From contig JAKQIY010000068.1 of assembly GCA_029561455.1 (NCBI GenBank), positions 62,001-126,000 on the forward strand: a DNA stretch of 64,000 nt, written 5' to 3'. Below, in pieces: positions 55,291 to 63,978 of the stretch. The notes under the pieces were generated by a model, which was not told the DNA's origin, did not search any database, and saw only the letters and a program-made list of their open reading frames with translations. The translations under genes and the position numbers were made by a program. The stretch is from a bacterium (lineage in GTDB: Bacteria; Zhuqueibacterota; Zhuqueibacteria; Residuimicrobiales; Krinioviventaceae). How positions within the stretch are numbered: position 1 is the stretch's first letter; every line of letters starts with the position of its first letter.

Positions 55291-55380
55291 CGACAGTGTT
55301 ATAATTACAATTCTAGTTCCGGAGCGCTTTACCTTTATAAGATGCGCTCCGGATTTTGTTCATATATAGAAAAGAAGAAA

Positions 55381-55746
55381 ATGTATAAACTGGTTGTCGA
55401 ATCTTTTTTTTCTGCCGCTCATCACCTGGTTGAATACCCGGGCGCCTGCCGCCGTATACACGGACATAACTGGGTAGTTAAAGCGACTATAGCAGCGAGT
55501 ATTCTTGATGAATCCGGTATGGTTATGGATCTGTTCACCCTGAAAGCGATACTTGATGATTGCCTTAACCAGTTTGATCATCGGTTGATCAATGAAACAC
55601 CGCCGTTTGATACCGTTAACCCCACCTCGGAAAACCTGGCAAAATATATATACGACTATATGAAAAAACAACTGCCGCAGGGAATTAATATGCACCAGGT
55701 TGAAGTATGTGAGACTGAAAAATTTTCCGTTATCTATTCGGAATAA
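55381..55746 (+). CDS. queD: 6-carboxy-tetrahydropterin synthase (QueD/PTPS family)
   Basis: 121 residues from the ATG at 55381 (upstream gaaaagaag); an in-frame ATG at 55342 would add a tail not seen in the family. Zinc histidines in SAAHHLVEYPGACRRIHGHNW, then GMVMDLFTLKAILDDCLNQF, DHRLIN, NPTSENLAKYIYDYM and VEVCETEKFSVIY. QueD converts dihydroneopterin triphosphate to 6-carboxytetrahydropterin in queuosine synthesis. The PTPS/folate variants are similar, and the cysteine after the histidine pair supports the QueD-type assignment. Confidence 0.9.
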   Translation: MYKLVVESFFSAAHHLVEYPGACRRIHGHNWVVKATIAASILDESGMVMDLFTLKAILDDCLNQFDHRLINETPPFDTVNPTSENLAKYIYDYMKKQLPQGINMHQVEVCETEKFSVIYSE

Positions 55747-55839: not shown

Positions 55840-55867
55840 TTGACTATTGGTTTTTAAATATTAAATT
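55840..55867 (+). promoter_or_regulatory. Possible promoter of the aromatic operon
   Basis: TTGACT (55840-55845) and TAAATT (55862-55867) spaced by 16 nt. The predicted transcript would begin near 55875, some 40 nt before the leader peptide. The -10 fits only four of six consensus bases. Confidence 0.4.
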
Positions 55868-55912
55868 TAACTCTTGAAATTATGGAACAGAATTCTAAAT
55901 CAGATTAACGCC

Positions 55913-55978
55913 ATGAAATTTACATATTACATCTTTAATTATTTTTATTATTTTACCGGCAGGTACGGGAAAGATTAG
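55913..55978 (+). CDS. Phe/Tyr-rich leader peptide of the aromatic amino acid operon
   Basis: A 21-codon frame, ATG to TAG, reading MKFTYYIFNYFYYFT and ending GRYGKD. Four Phe and six Tyr make up almost half the peptide, with a Tyr/Phe cluster at codons 10-14. The stop codon is directly before the candidate antiterminator and 31 nt before the terminator stem. This matches leader peptides such as PheL, where ribosome stalling at scarce charged tRNA controls transcription. The ribosome-binding site is poor by eye. The downstream operon makes chorismate and tyrosine precursors, so the codons fit the product. Confidence 0.85.
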   Translation: MKFTYYIFNYFYYFTGRYGKD

Positions 55979-55979
55979 C

Positions 55980-56031
55980 ATCAGGTCTTAATTTTTTTTA
56001 GCAAATCTAACCCACTACCAAAAATCCTGAT
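55980..56031 (+). promoter_or_regulatory. Candidate antiterminator pairing of the aromatic attenuator
   Basis: ATCAGG (55980-55985) is complementary to CCTGAT (56026-56031), and ATTTTT (55991-55996) to AAAAAT (56020-56025), with a 5-nt bulge; TAG/CTA pairing may extend it into the terminator's left arm. If a ribosome stalls on the Tyr/Phe codons this helix can form and block the terminator. If the ribosome reaches the leader stop codon it would cover ATCAGG. The structure is inferred from complementarity only. Confidence 0.65.
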
Positions 56032-56048
56032 AGTGGGTTTTTTCTTTT
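56009..56048 (+). terminator. Attenuator terminator before the chorismate mutase gene
   Basis: AACCCACTA (56009-56017) pairs with TAGTGGGTT (56031-56039) over a 13-nt loop, followed by TTTTCTTTT. The T-run ends 12 nt before the first start codon of a nine-gene operon, so the terminator must be regulated or leaky for the operon to be expressed. Confidence 0.9.
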
Positions 56049-56060
56049 ATGGAGCAACGC

Positions 56061-56342
56061 ATGGATATTCAGTCGATACGAAAAGAAATTGATACGATTG
56101 ACGAACAAATACTCGGCCTGTTGTCAAAACGGGCGGAATATGCTTTGCTCATCGGCAAACTTAAACAGCAAAATGCGTTGGCTATCCACAGCCGTGAAAG
56201 GGAAGAACAGATCATTTCCAATATTATTGTCAAAAATTCCGGGCCGCTTTCGCACCAGGATATACGGGTAATTTTTCAAATGATCATCCTGGTATGCCGC
56301 AATTTGCAAAGTGATGATGAAAAAAAAAATACCGGTTTATAG
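56061..56342 (+). CDS. Chorismate mutase (AroQ class)
   Basis: Converts chorismate to prephenate. 93 residues from the ATG at 56061, six bases after ggag; the ATG at 56049 overlaps that site and is not favoured. A three-helix AroQ-type protein: IRKEIDTIDEQILGLLSKRA with the first active-site Arg region, EYALLIGKLKQ (Lys), and IHSREREEQIISNI. First gene after the attenuator and located just before DAHP synthase. In relatives the two enzymes can form a complex or fusion; here they are separate genes. Confidence 0.92.
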   Translation: MDIQSIRKEIDTIDEQILGLLSKRAEYALLIGKLKQQNALAIHSREREEQIISNIIVKNSGPLSHQDIRVIFQMIILVCRNLQSDDEKKNTGL

Positions 56343-56420: not shown

Positions 56421-57443
56421 TTGGTCATAGTAATGAAAGATAGCGCATCGGAAGAACTGATTCTGGCGGTGGCCGATCGCTTGAAATCTTTAGGATTTGA
56501 TGTTCACAAAGTTGTTGGTGTTAACAAAACCATTCTTGGCGCCATAGGCGATAAACGGGATATAGATATTCGCCAGTTTGAAATTATGGATGGTGTACAG
56601 GAAGTCGTGCGCATTACCGAACCCTATAAACTCTCCAGCCGCACTTTTCACCCGGAAAATACTCATGTTCAGGTCCGTGATGTTGTTTTTGGCGCCGATG
56701 AGATCCATGTTATTGCCGGCCCCTGCTCGATTGAAAGCGAGGAACAATTGTTTACTATAGCCGGAATGGTGAAAAAAGCCGGGGCAACAGTTCTGCGCGG
56801 CGGCGCTTTTAAACCCCGCACCTCGCCGTACAGCTTTCAGGGTATGGGAGAAGAAGGCCTTAAACTTATGAAAGAAGCAGGCAAGCAATTCGAACTGGCA
56901 ACCGTTTCGGAAATCATGCGCGAAAACCAGTTGGACATGATGCTTGAAAATGTTGATATTTTACAAGTTGGCGCCCGAAATATGCAAAATTTTCCGCTGT
57001 TACGCGAACTGGGAAAAACCACAAAACCTATTTTGCTCAAGCGCGGTATGGCCGCTACAATCGAAGAATTTCTCATGGCTGCCGAATATATCATGGCCGG
57101 CGGTAATTATAATGTCATTCTGTGTGAACGGGGCATTCGTACTTTTGAAAATTACACCCGCAACACCCTGGACATATCGGCAATACCGGTTGTTCATAAA
57201 CTGAGCCATTTGCCGATCATAGTCGATCCCAGTCACGGCACCGGTCTGCGCGATAAAGTAGGACCAATGGCACGAGCTGCAGTAGCTGCCGGGGCCGACG
57301 GCCTCACCATTGAAGTTCATCACCAGCCGGAAAAAGCGCTTTCCGACGGCGCACAATCTTTGTATCCACACCAGTTTGAACGGCTCATGGAAGAATTACG
57401 AATGATTGCCTGGGCAATCGGCAGAAAAATAAAACAGGGATAA
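56421..57443 (+). CDS. aroF: 3-deoxy-7-phosphoheptulonate synthase (type I-beta)
   Basis: First step of the shikimate pathway: PEP + erythrose 4-phosphate to DAHP. 340 residues, TTG start eight bases after aaagg, giving an N-terminus MVIVMKDSASEE of the Thermotoga-type regulatory ferredoxin-like domain (residues 1-70), known to bind Tyr/Phe in the family. TIM barrel: IAGPCSIES, LRGGAFKPRTSPYSFQG, QVGARNMQNF, LLKRGMAATIEE, ILCERGIRTF, LPIIVDPSHGTG and IEVHHQPEKALSDG. Feedback sensing by the N-terminal domain would add to control by the upstream attenuator. Confidence 0.95.
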   Translation: MVIVMKDSASEELILAVADRLKSLGFDVHKVVGVNKTILGAIGDKRDIDIRQFEIMDGVQEVVRITEPYKLSSRTFHPENTHVQVRDVVFGADEIHVIAGPCSIESEEQLFTIAGMVKKAGATVLRGGAFKPRTSPYSFQGMGEEGLKLMKEAGKQFELATVSEIMRENQLDMMLENVDILQVGARNMQNFPLLRELGKTTKPILLKRGMAATIEEFLMAAEYIMAGGNYNVILCERGIRTFENYTRNTLDISAIPVVHKLSHLPIIVDPSHGTGLRDKVGPMARAAVAAGADGLTIEVHHQPEKALSDGAQSLYPHQFERLMEELRMIAWAIGRKIKQG

Positions 57444-57446
57444 ATA

Positions 57447-58556
57447 ATGGACACTTTTGAACGTTTTAACAAGATACTCATTGTCGGCGTCGGCCTGATC
57501 GGTGGCTCCCTGGCGCTGGCGCTTAAACGCAAGGGCTACACCGGCACAATTATCGGCGTTGATAATCCGTACGCCCTGGAAAATGCCAAAAAACGTAAAG
57601 CGGTCGACCTGGTTTATTCGATAGAAGAACTGGGTGAAGCGGCATCCCAGGCAGATTTGATCTTTTTATGCACACCGATCAATGTTATTATCGAACATTT
57701 ACAGGTATTAGGCAAATATGTTAAACCTAATACCCTCATAACGGATGTAGGCAGTATAAAGCGTAAAATTGTCGAGACTGCCAATATTCATTTACCCCAG
57801 GAATGTGATTTTATCGGCGGACATCCCATGGCCGGTTCCGAGTTTCGCGGCGTGAACGCAGCCGATCCGTTTTTGTTCGAAAACACAATTTATGTGTTAA
57901 CCCCGGTGCGGCCAATAAACGAATCGACGCGCAAAGCCTTTGGCGATTTACTGGAACGGATAGGCGCCAAAGTTCTGCTGTTGTTGCCCAAATTGCATGA
58001 TGAAATTGCCGCTGCGGTCAGCCATTTACCGCAAATGGCCGCTGTAGCTTTGATGAATATGGTGGCCAACAAGCAAAAAGAGAGCCCCCATTTTCTGAAA
58101 ATGGCCGCCGGCGGTTTTCGTGATATGACCCGCATTGCTTCCAGTCCCTATGGTATGTGGGAGCAGATCAGAACCACCAATGCCGATATGATTGTAACTT
58201 ATATCGATGCATACATCGAAGAATTGAATAAAGTAAAAAATATGCTGCTGACCGATGACCTGCAAAAATATTTTGAAAATTCGGCCCGCAACCGGTTATA
58301 TATACCCAGTGATACCAAAGGCTTTTTAAGGCCGCATTATGATATTTCCGTTGCGGTTGAAGACCGGCCCGGCATGATCGCCCTGATCACCAATACCCTG
58401 GCCGGTAAAGAAATAAATATCAAAGATATCGAAGTATTAAAAATCAGAGAAGACGAGGGTGGCACAATTCGTTTGGCATTCTCCACAGAAAAAGAGCAGG
58501 AAATGGCTCTGGAATTGCTCAAAGCGAATGGCCTTGAATGTGGTAAGAGGGAATAA
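57447..58556 (+). CDS. tyrA: Prephenate dehydrogenase with C-terminal ACT domain
   Basis: Oxidatively decarboxylates prephenate to 4-hydroxyphenylpyruvate, the tyrosine precursor. 369 residues, start three bases after the aroF stop. The NAD-binding N-terminus is KILIVGVGLIGGSLALALK; later motifs are LIFLCTPINVIIEHL, GGHPMAGSEFRGVNA (catalytic His region), HDEIAAAVSHLPQMAAVAL and GGFRDMTRIASSP. An ACT domain at about 288-369 (ISVAVEDRPGMIALITN) suggests tyrosine feedback inhibition. Confidence 0.95.
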   Translation: MDTFERFNKILIVGVGLIGGSLALALKRKGYTGTIIGVDNPYALENAKKRKAVDLVYSIEELGEAASQADLIFLCTPINVIIEHLQVLGKYVKPNTLITDVGSIKRKIVETANIHLPQECDFIGGHPMAGSEFRGVNAADPFLFENTIYVLTPVRPINESTRKAFGDLLERIGAKVLLLLPKLHDEIAAAVSHLPQMAAVALMNMVANKQKESPHFLKMAAGGFRDMTRIASSPYGMWEQIRTTNADMIVTYIDAYIEELNKVKNMLLTDDLQKYFENSARNRLYIPSDTKGFLRPHYDISVAVEDRPGMIALITNTLAGKEINIKDIEVLKIREDEGGTIRLAFSTEKEQEMALELLKANGLECGKRE

Positions 58557-58557
58557 T

Positions 58558-59841
58558 ATGAAAAATATAGTGCTCAAACCCGCAGCGCGTCTGCGGGGTG
58601 AAATTGTTCTGCCCGGCGATAAATCTATTTCCCATCGTGCGCTGATACTGAGCGCCATTGCGGATGGCGATTGTCATATTACCGGGTTATCCAATGCCCT
58701 GGATGTCAACAACACTATCGAGTGTTTGAAAAAATTAGGTATTAAAATTCAAACCAAAGGGGAGCAGGTCATTGTCAAAGGCGGTGGGATGTATGGATTA
58801 AAAGCGCCGAAAACGATCCTGGATGCGGGAAATTCCGGCACGACGATCCGCCTGTTATCCGGCATATTGGCGGCGCAGGATTTCATTACGGAAATTACAG
58901 GCGACGCTTCCCTGCAAAACCGCCCGATGCGGCGTGTAATAGAACCCCTGGAAATGATGGGAGCGCAAATTGAAAGTAATATGTTCAAAGCGCCGTTAAA
59001 AATTCGCGGCAACCAGCTGCGCGCTATTGATTATGCTTCGGCGGTGGCCAGCGCCCAGGTAAAATCCTGTATTTTGTTGGCCGGTTTATACGCCAAAGGA
59101 ATTACACGGGTTACGGAACCTTCCGAATCCCGTAATCATACCGAATTAATGCTGCGGGAATTTAATGTCAATATCCAGGCAAATCCGGGTATGGCCGGCG
59201 TTAAGGGCCCGGCGCAATTGCAACCTGCCGATATTGATGTGCCGGCCGATATTTCAGCGGCGGCGTTTTTTCTGATCGCCGGGTGCCTGGTTCCCGATTC
59301 TGAAATTATTATGCCGAATGTCGGTGTCAACCCAACCCGCACCGGTATTCTGGATGCTCTGATTGCCATGAAAGCACCGGTACAAACGGAACCCCAGGTA
59401 ACAATTAATTACGAACCCCGACAAAAATTGATCGCCCGGCCGGTCAATCTCAATCCAACGCACCTGAGCGGCTCGCTGATACCACGCATTATTGATGAAA
59501 TCCCGATCCTGGCGGTGGCCGCAACCCAGGCTAATGGCACCACAACAATCAAGGATGCCGGCGAATTGCGCATCAAAGAGTCGGATCGCATCACCACAGT
59601 TGTCAGTAACCTGAAGAAAATGAAAGCCAATATCCGTGAGATCAAGGACGGCATGATCATTGACGGCCCCAGCCGATTACGCGGCGCAGAAATTGATTCC
59701 TACGGCGATCATCGTATTGCCATGGCTTTTGCCATTGCCGCACTATTCGCGGAAGGAGAAACCCAAATCAATAATATCGAGTGCGTCGATACTTCTTTTC
59801 CGGGATTTTTTGAAATGTTAGAGTCGCTGCGTAATGGTTAA
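58558..59841 (+). CDS. aroA: 3-phosphoshikimate 1-carboxyvinyltransferase (EPSP synthase)
   Basis: 427 residues from the ATG at 58558, one base after the tyrA stop and behind gaggg; upstream in-frame codons would overlap tyrA by about 100 bp and add residues outside the family. It joins shikimate 3-phosphate and PEP. Motifs: LPGDKSISHRALILSA, LDAGNSGTTIRLLSG, SLQNRPMRRVIEPL, SAQVKSCILLAGLYA, DISAAAFFLIAG, DEIPILAVAAT, LRIKESDRI and YGDHRIAMAFAIAAL. The GNSGT active-site loop has the usual, non-shifted residues. Confidence 0.96.
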   Translation: MKNIVLKPAARLRGEIVLPGDKSISHRALILSAIADGDCHITGLSNALDVNNTIECLKKLGIKIQTKGEQVIVKGGGMYGLKAPKTILDAGNSGTTIRLLSGILAAQDFITEITGDASLQNRPMRRVIEPLEMMGAQIESNMFKAPLKIRGNQLRAIDYASAVASAQVKSCILLAGLYAKGITRVTEPSESRNHTELMLREFNVNIQANPGMAGVKGPAQLQPADIDVPADISAAAFFLIAGCLVPDSEIIMPNVGVNPTRTGILDALIAMKAPVQTEPQVTINYEPRQKLIARPVNLNPTHLSGSLIPRIIDEIPILAVAATQANGTTTIKDAGELRIKESDRITTVVSNLKKMKANIREIKDGMIIDGPSRLRGAEIDSYGDHRIAMAFAIAALFAEGETQINNIECVDTSFPGFFEMLESLRNG

Positions 59842-60715
59842 AGCATCGAGTAAATTATATGCGGTAATCGGCGATCCCATTGCTCATAGTCTTTCTCCGC
59901 TCATGCAAAACTGGATGATCGGCCAATTTGGCCTCAATGCTGTGTATGTGGCATTTCACATTCGCAAACCTCAGCTTGAAGCCTGTCTGCAAGCGGTGCG
60001 TACGTTAGAAATTGGCGGTTTAAATGTAACCGTTCCGCACAAAGAAGCCGTACTACCATTTGTGGATACAAAATCAGTTGATGTGGAACTGTTACAGGCG
60101 GCCAACACTATTAAAAACTGCAACGGGCAGTTGCAAGCGCATGTTACCGATCCATTTGGATTCACAGAATCGCTTGGTGATAACCGTGATCGTTGTAACG
60201 GCGCTAGCGTGGTATTATTTGGCGCCGGCGGCGCCGCCCGTTCTGTCTGTTATGCGTTGTCCCGTCTGAAAATTGCCCGTTTAGTGATTGGCGATGTTGT
60301 GGCAGATAAAGCCCGTGAATTACAAAGCCTGGCAATAAACAGGCTCAATATGCCTGATGTGTCCTTGTTTTCTCCCGCCGATCCCAATTTTTCCGATCTA
60401 ATTAGCGATGCCGGTATTATCATCAATACCACTGCAGTGGGCATGCATCCCGACACCGACCGGGCTGTTATGAGCGATTTTTCTTGTATCAGCAAACACC
60501 ATTTTGTTTATGATGTCATTTATAATCCACAAACGACAAGGCTTTTACAACAAGCGAAAAAGCATGGGGCGACTGTGCAAAATGGCCTGGATATGCTTAT
60601 ATACCAGGGACTGGAATCGCTGCGTATCTTTAGCGGCGAACATTTAACGCTCAGTCCAGCGCAATTGTCGGAACTGCATAAAATAATGAACCGTGAATTG
60701 GGGATTTATGAGTAG
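59834..60715 (+). CDS. aroE: Shikimate dehydrogenase
   Basis: NADPH-dependent reduction of 3-dehydroshikimate to shikimate. 293 residues. Motifs: VIGDPIAHSLSPLMQNWM (substrate-binding Ser), GLNVTVPHKEAVLPF (catalytic Lys), the Rossmann loop VVLFGAGGAARSVCYAL, NTTAVGMHPD and VYDVIYNPQTTRLLQQA. The start overlaps the aroA end by 8 nt (translational coupling). Confidence 0.96.
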   Translation: MVKASSKLYAVIGDPIAHSLSPLMQNWMIGQFGLNAVYVAFHIRKPQLEACLQAVRTLEIGGLNVTVPHKEAVLPFVDTKSVDVELLQAANTIKNCNGQLQAHVTDPFGFTESLGDNRDRCNGASVVLFGAGGAARSVCYALSRLKIARLVIGDVVADKARELQSLAINRLNMPDVSLFSPADPNFSDLISDAGIIINTTAVGMHPDTDRAVMSDFSCISKHHFVYDVIYNPQTTRLLQQAKKHGATVQNGLDMLIYQGLESLRIFSGEHLTLSPAQLSELHKIMNRELGIYE

Positions 60716-61913
60716 AATACGCTTTTTAACCGCCGGGGAATCGCATGGTCGCGCCTTGACTACTATCATTGAAGGATTACCGGCCGGCCTGGAAATATCG
60801 GAAACAGCTATCGAACATGAACTGCAGCGCCGTCAGCGTGGCTACGGCCGCGGCGATCGCATGAAAATTGAACATGATCGTGCCCGGATTTTATCGGGAG
60901 TGCGCTATGGTGTGAGCCTCGGCAGCCCGGTATCTTTGCTGCTTGAAAATAAAGACTGGATCAACTGGACTGAAAAAATGTCGGTTACGCCGGTAGAACA
61001 CCCTACGCCGCCGCTGCAAATGCCCCGGCCCGGCCACGCCGACTTTGCCGGCATGGTTAAATATCGCCAGGATGATCTGCGTAATTTACTCGAACGCTCT
61101 TCCGCCCGCGAAACCACCATGCGCGTCGCCGTGGGCGCCATTTGTAAAAAACTGCTGGAAAAATTTCATATACATATTTATGGACATATAACCCGTATTG
61201 GGTCCGTTACTTCACCTTTCAGTGTGTTAAATATCCCATCCCGGCATTTTAAAAATCCTGATTATATTAAAGAATTTGCAACAATTTTTAAACAGGTTGA
61301 AGAATCGCCTATGGCCTGTGCTGATTCAGCCGCTACTACAGCAATGGTAGCACTGGTTGATGACGCAAAACAGCAGGGCACATCGCTTGGCGGCCAGTTT
61401 GAACTAATTGCTACCGGCTTGCCGGTTGGGTTGGGCAGCCACGTTCATTGGGATCGCAAACTGGATGCGCAAATTGCCGCCGCACTAATGAGCATCAATG
61501 CAATAAAGGCTGTCGAGATCGGCCTGGGCGTGCAGGTTGCCCACTTGCCCGGCAATAAAGTACATGACCAGCTTTATTATACCGAAGCCGGTGGCTATTA
61601 TCGCGGTAGTAATAACGCCGGGGGAATTGAAGGTGGTATGAGTAACGGCGAACCCATCGTTGTAAAAGCGACCATGAAGCCCCTGCCGACAATGATCCAA
61701 CCACTGGATTCGGTGAATGTCGCCACACATACAGCCAGCACTGCCCATTATGAACGCGCTGATGTGTGCGCCGCTCCCGCTGCGGTTGTCGTTGGCGAAG
61801 CCATGCTGGCTATAGTTCTTGCCGATGCCCTGTACGAAAAACTGGGCGGCGATTCAATCCCGGAAATGCTACATAATTTTAGAGGATTGTCAAATGTACC
61901 CCTGGGATGGTAA
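60708..61913 (+). CDS. aroC: Chorismate synthase
   Basis: Converts EPSP to chorismate with reduced FMN as cofactor. 401 residues from the ATG at 60708, which overlaps the aroE stop; upstream in-frame codons are inside aroE. Motifs: FLTAGESHGRALTTIIEG, RRQRGYGRGDRMKIEHD, LSGVRYGVSLGSPVSLLL, MPRPGHADFAGMVKY, SSARETTMRVAVGAI, GGIEGGMSNGEPIVVKAT and ADVCAAPAAVVVGEAMLA. Full length, intact active-site residues. Confidence 0.97.
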   Translation: MSRIRFLTAGESHGRALTTIIEGLPAGLEISETAIEHELQRRQRGYGRGDRMKIEHDRARILSGVRYGVSLGSPVSLLLENKDWINWTEKMSVTPVEHPTPPLQMPRPGHADFAGMVKYRQDDLRNLLERSSARETTMRVAVGAICKKLLEKFHIHIYGHITRIGSVTSPFSVLNIPSRHFKNPDYIKEFATIFKQVEESPMACADSAATTAMVALVDDAKQQGTSLGGQFELIATGLPVGLGSHVHWDRKLDAQIAAALMSINAIKAVEIGLGVQVAHLPGNKVHDQLYYTEAGGYYRGSNNAGGIEGGMSNGEPIVVKATMKPLPTMIQPLDSVNVATHTASTAHYERADVCAAPAAVVVGEAMLAIVLADALYEKLGGDSIPEMLHNFRGLSNVPLGW

Positions 61914-62430
61914 AAACATCTATTTTATGGGTTTTATGGCATCCGGCAAATCCGCTGTGGGCCGCGAAATGGCGAAAATGCTAGGTTGGCCGTTTCACGA
62001 TACCGATGATCTGGTTGAAATTAAAGCCGGGAAAAAGATCAGCAGCATTTTTGAGGAAGATGGGGAAGAGGCATTTCGTAACCTGGAAACCCAAGTTTTG
62101 CAGGATATTGCCGCTAAACGGCAATTAGTTATTTCCCTGGGCGGCGGCGCTATTATCCGCGAACAAAACCGGGCGCTGTTGAAACAAAGCGGTATTTTGA
62201 TCTGTTTAACCGCGCCGGTTGAAATTCTGGCGCAACGCATTGCGATGAAATCGCACCGGCCGCTGATGGCCAACCTTTCCGGCCCTGAATTACAAGCTAA
62301 AATCGCCGCAATGCTGCGCGACCGTGAACCATATTATAAACAAGCCGACTATACTGTTGTTAATGACGGAGTACTGAATATTAAACAACTGACCAGTTCA
62401 TTATTCAATAAAATGTGTAATGATGTATGA
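61894..62430 (+). CDS. aroK: Shikimate kinase
   Basis: ATP-dependent phosphorylation of shikimate. 178 residues from the ATG at 61894, seven bases after agagga; it overlaps aroC by 20 nt. Walker A GFMASGKSAVG, HDTDDLVEIKAGKKISSIF (shikimate binding), FRNLETQVL, ISLGGGAII and SHRPLM with the lid Arg. The earlier in-frame ATG at 61819 would run through aroC and is rejected. Confidence 0.95.
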   Translation: MYPWDGKNIYFMGFMASGKSAVGREMAKMLGWPFHDTDDLVEIKAGKKISSIFEEDGEEAFRNLETQVLQDIAAKRQLVISLGGGAIIREQNRALLKQSGILICLTAPVEILAQRIAMKSHRPLMANLSGPELQAKIAAMLRDREPYYKQADYTVVNDGVLNIKQLTSSLFNKMCNDV

Positions 62431-63521
62431 ATAAACTAGTAGTAAACCTGGATAACCGTTCCTACCCGATATACATCGAACCGGCAATTTTTAAAGAAAC
62501 CGCGTCATTACTTGGCCAATTCGACTCCGGCAAGGAGTTTTTTATTATTACCGATAGCAATGTCCGGCCACTGTATGGCGATGTGCTGTTTGACTCGCTG
62601 CGCAATGCCGGTCTCTCTCCACAATTACTGGTTGTTCCCGCCGGAGAACACTCTAAATCCCTGCAGGTCGCGGAAGATTTGTATACACAACTGCTCGCGG
62701 CGCGGGTCACCCGTCAATCTAAAATCATTGCTTTGGGTGGCGGCGTTATCGGTGATCTGGCTGGATTTGTTGCCGCAACCTTGTTGCGTGGTGTACCATT
62801 TATCCAGATACCCACAACCCTTTTGAGCCAGGTCGATAGCAGCGTCGGCGGCAAAGTCGGCATCAATCATCCACTGGGGAAAAATCTGATCGGTGCTTTT
62901 TATCAGCCGCAGTTGGTCATCATTGATCCCCTGGTTTTAAAAACGCTGCCAATCCGTGAAATTAAAGCCGGTTTGGCCGAAGTTATCAAGTATTCCTTTA
63001 TCGCCAACGCCGGTTTTTTTAAGCAATTATCCGCATCTATCACTGATATTATTAATCTCAATGATTTAATGTTGGTGCAGGACATAATTTCCACATGCTG
63101 CCAAATTAAGGCTGAGGTAGTTGCCAAAGATGAAAGAGAATCCGGTTTACGCGCCATTCTCAATTTCGGGCATACGATTGGTCATGCGTTGGAAACTGTT
63201 ACCAATTACGACTATTTTTTGCATGGTGAAGCGGTAGCGCATGGTATGCGCGGGGCATTATACCTGTCTTTTTTACATCAGTATATCAATAAAAATGAAC
63301 TGACCCGGGCCTGTGCGCTAATTGCCAGCCTGGAACCGCCTGCCATCCCCACACATATAACCGGTGAAGCGCTTGTGCAGGCCATGAGTAAGGACAAAAA
63401 GCGCTCCGATAAAGGCCAGTTGTGGATTTTACTGCAAAAAATCGGTCAGTATGATATGAACCGCAATGTTCCTGCCGAAATGGTAAAAGAAGCAATTGAT
63501 TTTATCCTAACGGGGAACTAA
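62427..63521 (+). CDS. aroB: 3-dehydroquinate synthase
   Basis: Cyclises DAHP to 3-dehydroquinate with NAD and a divalent metal. 364 residues, starting in the aroK stop (ATGA overlap). Motifs: [65 protein letters not shown] and [12 protein letters not shown] with metal ligands His/Glu. Complete and of usual length. Confidence 0.97.
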
Positions 63522-63537
63522 CAAACAAGGAATTATT

Positions 63538-63978
63538 ATGCTAAATATATTGGTTATTCACGGTCCAAACCTTAATTTACTGGGCGAACGCGAACCGGAT
63601 GTATATGGATGTTTCACCCTGGATGATGTAAATAAGCAAATCACCACCCTGGCTCAGCAATTGGACATGACCGTAAGGATATTTCAATCCAACCACGAGG
63701 GGAATATAATCGATTTTATTCATGAAAACCGCAAATGGGCGCATGGCATCGTCATCAACCCCGGCGCCTTTACCCATTACAGTTATGCCCTGCGCGATGC
63801 CATTGCCGGCGTGCAGCTTCCGGCTGTAGAGGTTCATATCTCCGATATTTACAAGCGCGAAGAATTCCGTAAAATATCGGTGATCAAACCGGTTTGTATC
63901 CACCAGGTTTCCGGTAAAGGTATAAACAGTTACCTGGAAGGCATTCAGTTCCTGGAAAATTATATAAAATCGCTCTGA
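63538..63978 (+). CDS. aroQ: 3-dehydroquinate dehydratase, type II
   Basis: Dehydrates 3-dehydroquinate to 3-dehydroshikimate. 146 residues; start ATG with aagga nearby. Type II signatures: [19 protein letters not shown] (catalytic Arg/Tyr region), [50 protein letters not shown]. Last gene seen in the operon; 22 bases after its stop the window ends, so further operon genes are possible. The name aroQ here means dehydroquinase, not the AroQ-class chorismate mutase at 56061. Confidence 0.96.

Follow-up and report, generated by a model that had tools for sequence, protein, structure and literature searches.

Between a queD-like gene and a nine-gene chorismate/tyrosine operon, the 64,000-nucleotide stretch of DNA analysed here (the window) contains what is very probably a ribosome-mediated transcription attenuator, by which the operon as a whole responds to the supply of charged Phe- and Tyr-tRNA. 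Its parts are present and conserved, its terminator and antiterminator are mutually exclusive, and both helices covary among relatives; ribosome stalling, readthrough and a response to Phe and Tyr are predicted from this arrangement.

Leader, switch and operon in the window

A sigma-70-like promoter, identified by consensus match only, is present at 55840-55867 (-35 TTGACT, 55840-55845; 16-nt spacer; -10 TAAATT, 55862-55867), on the forward strand as are all features of the window described here, and starts 73 nt 5′ of the ATG of a short frame. Of 38 loci, 28 have a TTGAC box 53-77 nt 5′ of the leader ATG, counting L116 via a match at -75 and excluding L127, whose sole match is at -19, and the box is mostly followed by a TA(T/A)ATT-like -10 sequence. 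The leader frame itself (55913-55978) reads MKFTYYIFNYFYYFTGRYGKD followed by a stop codon, and the letters bear out the description given in an earlier, sequence-only reading of this DNA, a frame of 21 codons of which 10 are aromatic, 4 Phe and 6 Tyr. None of 300 dinucleotide shuffles of this region yielded an ATG frame with an equally dense aromatic run, and shuffles carried out locus by locus gave an equally dense frame in 0-6 of 300.

An intrinsic terminator lies between the leader and the first gene. The hairpin (56009-56039) has a 9-bp outer stem with arms AACCCACTA (56009-56017) and TAGTGGGTT (56031-56039), is found at the same place in leader-bearing relatives and, as had been described from the sequence, has a T tract (56038-56048) that stops 12 nt short of the ATG at 56061. 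A simple terminator scanner listed no terminator at the leader site of the window, and scored that of L153 as weak. The distance from leader stop codon to terminator is 20-38 nt in all loci except L135 (51 nt). A GGAG sequence (56051-56054) probably serves as ribosome-binding site for the first gene and favours initiation at ATG 56061 over ATG 56049; in L113, a relative from the same genus, a stop codon comes directly after the upstream ATG.

Nine chorismate/tyrosine genes had been proposed to follow the terminator and Pfam matches agree. They encode a type II chorismate mutase (CM; 56061-56342, PF01817), the DAHP synthase AroF (56421-57443, PF00793 and PF18152), prephenate dehydrogenase with an ACT-like domain (tyrA, 57447-58556), EPSP synthase (aroA, 58555-59841), shikimate dehydrogenase (aroE, 59834-60715), chorismate synthase (aroC, 60708-61913), shikimate kinase (aroK, 61891-62430), dehydroquinate synthase (aroB, 62427-63521) and a class II dehydroquinase (aroQ, 63538-63978). 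Most of these genes overlap or are separated by a few bases, the widest gap, 78 nt, being that between CM and aroF, and the order CM-aroF-tyrA-aroA-aroE-aroC-aroK-aroB-aroQ is kept within the taxonomic order of the window. The earlier suggestion that the operon would be controlled as a whole is supported. The queD-like gene (6-pyruvoyl-tetrahydropterin synthase, 55342-55746) is upstream on the same strand, and such genes are often near the operon in relatives.

The left arm of the antiterminator (55962-55979, GGTACGGGAAAGATTAGC) is within the last leader codons and the stop codon, and its right arm (56001-56019, GCAAATCTAACCCACTACC) consists of the terminator's 5′ arm and the sequence flanking it. 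As terminator and antiterminator both use 56009-56019, they are mutually exclusive. The antiterminator helix contains mismatches in the window, and its pairing scores z = -3.7 relative to shuffled leader ends. The predicted fold contains the antiterminator when its arm is free (-18.9 kcal/mol), and is reduced to the terminator when a ribosome occupies the stop codon (-12.8 kcal/mol). Given an assumed ribosome footprint, a ribosome at the stop codon would hide the whole arm, and one stalled at any of 8 of the 10 aromatic codons would leave it free.

Transcription would start downstream of the promoter, with a ribosome following RNA polymerase and translating the leader. When Phe- or Tyr-tRNA is scarce, the ribosome would stall in the Phe/Tyr run (codons 3-14), leaving the end of the frame (55962-55979) bare to pair with 56001-56019; the left arm of the terminator would be taken and the operon read. 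With an ample supply, the ribosome would reach the stop codon (55976-55978) and cover the left arm of the antiterminator, the terminator would form and transcription would end.

Conservation in relatives and alternative explanations

AroF was searched for in 82 genomes of the phylum, and upstream DNA was obtained from about 50 loci. A scan of further genome contigs gave AroF matches of at most 69% identity, in Acidobacteria, Zixibacteria and other groups; none evidently belonged to the window's phylum, and L036, labelled Zixibacteria, has a TyrA with only 35% identity. Sensing of Phe and Tyr by ribosome stalling had been proposed from the window alone, with the suggestion that orthologous upstream regions be compared for Phe/Tyr-rich frames and for covariation in both helices. 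All 16 loci of the window's taxonomic order whose upstream DNA is intact, the window itself among them, have a Phe/Tyr-rich frame (for example MKYNFYNYYYFYFYFGSSGRD, MFYFFYNYYFYFTCSGKG and MNYHYYNFYYYYFYEPCGG), and 17 further aro-operon loci, from families of the class (f7, f8, f12, f13) and of the phylum (f14, f16, f18, f19, f23), carry their own such frame and terminator. Both Phe and Tyr are represented in every leader, the weakest, L150 and L123, having 4 aromatic codons each. Covariation is seen for the terminator and for the antiterminator formed by the leader end, and the proposed sensing is, to this extent, supported. The last leader codons are G-rich in nearly every locus (often AGYGGG) and complementary to the flank and left arm of the terminator. 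When the duplex energies of own partners were compared with those of partners swapped between loci, the own pairs were stronger with z = -9.5 for 28 loci and z = -12.5 for 37 loci, with 0 of 5000 permutations as extreme in either case; L135, which has no clear arm, was omitted from the later pairing sets. The signal persists without the GC-rich pair L136 and L143 (z = -11.4) and in a thinned set (z = -11.2), and control segments gave z = -1.9 to +0.6. Changes also occur three ways among the helices, as in L119 (CCCACA/TGTGGG/TGTGGG).

Phe and Tyr codons are A+T-rich (over all leaders there are 131 TAT, 116 TTT, 33 TAC and 25 TTC), which by itself gives some enrichment in leaders that are A+T-rich. 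An A+T-rich spacer that by chance holds an aromatic frame, in which TTT and TAT arise easily, and an ordinary terminator is nevertheless practically out of the question, contradicted by the shuffles, by the covarying helices and by the phylum-wide conservation, which already refutes it; A+T content as the source of the enrichment is opposed by the shuffles and by two GC-rich relatives that share the design, L136 and L143. Arrest peptides, such as TnaC, have a similar arrangement of a short conserved leader and a terminator, and the frame might on that account respond to a free metabolite rather than to charged tRNA. This is very unlikely, as the residue pattern is not fixed: Phe and Tyr swap freely, being exchanged at 5 of the 9 aromatic positions shared by the window and a same-genus relative, and the class of amino acid is all that is retained. 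The SSG, GGR or GK residues at the C-terminal end of the leaders are accounted for by the antiterminator arm being G-rich. Even less credible is a hairpin that does no more than terminate transcription of the queD-like gene, with the operon promoter behind it. The gene is on the same strand as the hairpin, but a promoter-like site and the leader intervene between them, several relatives (e.g. L114 and L115) have leader and hairpin and no queD match in the stretch read, and only about 21 nt separate the hairpin from the first gene.

The sequence-only reading had correctly recognized a switch between terminator and antiterminator, but had built it from other segments, pairing the linker ATCAGG...ATTTTT with the loop and right arm of the terminator (55980-55996 with 56018-56033). 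Complementarity of ATCAGG (55980-55985) to CCTGAT (56026-56031) does exist in the window, and the duplex has an energy of -7.9 kcal/mol. It is, however, weaker than the leader-end pairing (-15.9 kcal/mol), is not kept among relatives (z = -0.5 and +0.6) and includes a linker segment that has not been kept in the same-genus relative, so that there is very little probability that it is the working antiterminator, even in this species alone. The arm that is conserved is the one that pairs the last leader codons with the left arm of the terminator.

Leader codons and helix layouts across the phylum

In families f9, f10 and f11, CM-aroF-tyrA is located directly 3′ of trpEGDCFBA, and no separate Phe/Tyr leader precedes CM-aroF-tyrA where the upstream DNA was read. 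Of such trp-aro fusions, L157, L158, L159, L161 and L162 have a mixed Trp/Phe/Tyr leader before trpE, exemplified by MKHLPANYFWRNWYWYYYTSSGKDSHSSSR in L157 and MKAIHSTSAYWFWYWYYYASSGMDMFASRI in L158. There are 2-3 Trp codons per leader in all five fused loci and 0-1 in all 33 separate loci; at least two Trp codons in 5/5 versus 0/33 gives a Fisher p = 2e-6 with kinship ignored, and on the tree the fused state requires two changes, so that few evolutionary events are behind this comparison. Separate and trp-fused operons are thus a natural experiment in which leader codons follow gene content, and the result supports the view that the codons track the genes that they would control. These five fusion operons also have tyrA and further aro genes after CM-aroF.

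The loci also differ in helix layout. In loci from outside the window's taxonomic order, the antiterminator arm has a second pairing partner early in the frame, mostly at codons 4-9 (z = -6.6), with the aromatic codons largely between the two segments, a four-segment layout of the trpL type. Within the order, this layout is absent: the sequestering helix of segments 1 and 2 gave no signal (z = +0.4), with both linker and upstream DNA tried. The leaders of the order are shorter (median 20.5 versus 31 codons) and a ribosome on the stop codon would cover more of the arm (median 1.0 versus 0.5; p = 5e-6), a contrast between clades that is not significant within either and so may reflect a single evolutionary event. 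Plausibly, segment 1 was lost in the order and its function passed to the ribosome at the stop codon; loss is the direction suggested by the presence of the helix in several other classes of the phylum. We lean slightly towards a phylum-wide family of aromatic attenuators, with codons retuned with the operon (Phe/Tyr for aro-tyr; Trp, Phe and Tyr for trp-aro) and segment 1 lost in the window's order, where a three-segment switch with its arm on the stop codon would remain. If so, readthrough would be the default for a leader that is not translated, the reverse of the superattenuation of trpL, and loss of the protecting helix together with an arm on the stop codon gives a testable prediction for the default state of such switches.

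Leaders are also present elsewhere in the genome of the window. Before a separate trpEGDCFBA operon is a leader rich in Trp, MSLTQKQSCFLFWWWLWRTEVYHR (L168, contig G000:C61, reverse complement 2444-2518), accompanied by a terminator and a further hairpin, and a His-rich leader, MIRYTVHHHHHAHITDNSL, precedes hisG (L170, contig G000:C51, reverse complement 1092-1151), with a terminator about 40 nt further on. In this genome, no leader was seen before pheS or a homoserine dehydrogenase gene. A frame reading MQILDYYRYFF before a prephenate dehydratase gene (L156, contig G000:C19, 145-180) may be only promoter sequence, and a leader for that gene was rejected, the site being too near the contig end and having no clear terminator. 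Beyond the phylum, Phe-rich short frames with a terminator immediately after them precede aroF in Clostridia and Fusobacteria (L065, L067, L074, L079, L086 and L107). Some share a GF(F/Y)FSxGxxFC-like peptide motif, and these frames may represent a further attenuator family, one whose leader is conserved in sequence. In an Acidobacteria metagenome-assembled genome, a frame rich in Phe, Tyr and Trp, MTLACNLYFFYWWHMKSFCPPV, is located before CM-aroF (L056, 2503-2571), and the terminator scan found none near it.

Relation to known systems

Leaders this short seldom retain homology. No attenuator, T-box or riboswitch family of Rfam exceeded its gathering threshold in the leader region; the best sub-threshold matches, to the trpB motif (21.4 bits, cut-off 59) and SAM-SAH (19.1, cut-off 40), were taken as chance. 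The tyrosine T-box of low-GC Gram-positives resembles the proposed attenuator in that tRNA charging is sensed before aromatic genes, whereas the window, which has no Rfam T-box match, would sense it through leader codons. With trpL of E. coli there is the likeness of exclusive helices set by ribosome position, and relatives outside the window's taxonomic order have segments 1 to 4, but the order itself lacks segment 1 and has segment 2 on the leader stop. The pheL/pheA and pheM/pheST systems of E. coli also have Phe-rich leaders with alternative terminators and antiterminators; they govern terminal-branch or synthetase genes without sensing Tyr, and differ from the window, where the antiterminator arm is inside the leader frame.

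In the literature outside subscription papers, we found no description of an attenuator of this kind from the lineage of the window, of an aroF leader in which Phe and Tyr are both this abundant, or of trp-aro fusions with mixed Trp/Phe/Tyr leaders. The statement of the sequence-only reading that no such case has been described was, however, too strong, as leader-peptide attenuation of aroF is already known: aroR of C. glutamicum and uORFC-13-1 of Acholeplasma both precede aroF (PMC11802643, PMC4046766, PMC8632094). The present attenuator would extend such regulation to an entire uncultured phylum and would offer a single mixed leader through which the common shikimate pathway would be governed by both of its main end products. 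The Acholeplasma motif, which has a Phe codon or codons and a terminator (PMC8632094), is alike in placing an upstream Phe-codon frame and a terminator before aroF, and differs in lineage and in having at least one Phe codon, as opposed to the Phe/Tyr run of the window. The leader of the C. glutamicum aroF operon contains Phe-Tyr-Phe, and ribosome stalling on it raises transcription under Phe limitation, no response to Tyr limitation being reported (Neshat 2014, as cited in PMC11802643; PMC4046766). There, as in the window, an aromatic leader peptide precedes a DAHP synthase operon, but C. glutamicum belongs to another phylum and its leader has three clustered aromatic codons, whereas that of the window has 10 and precedes a nine-gene shikimate/tyrosine operon.
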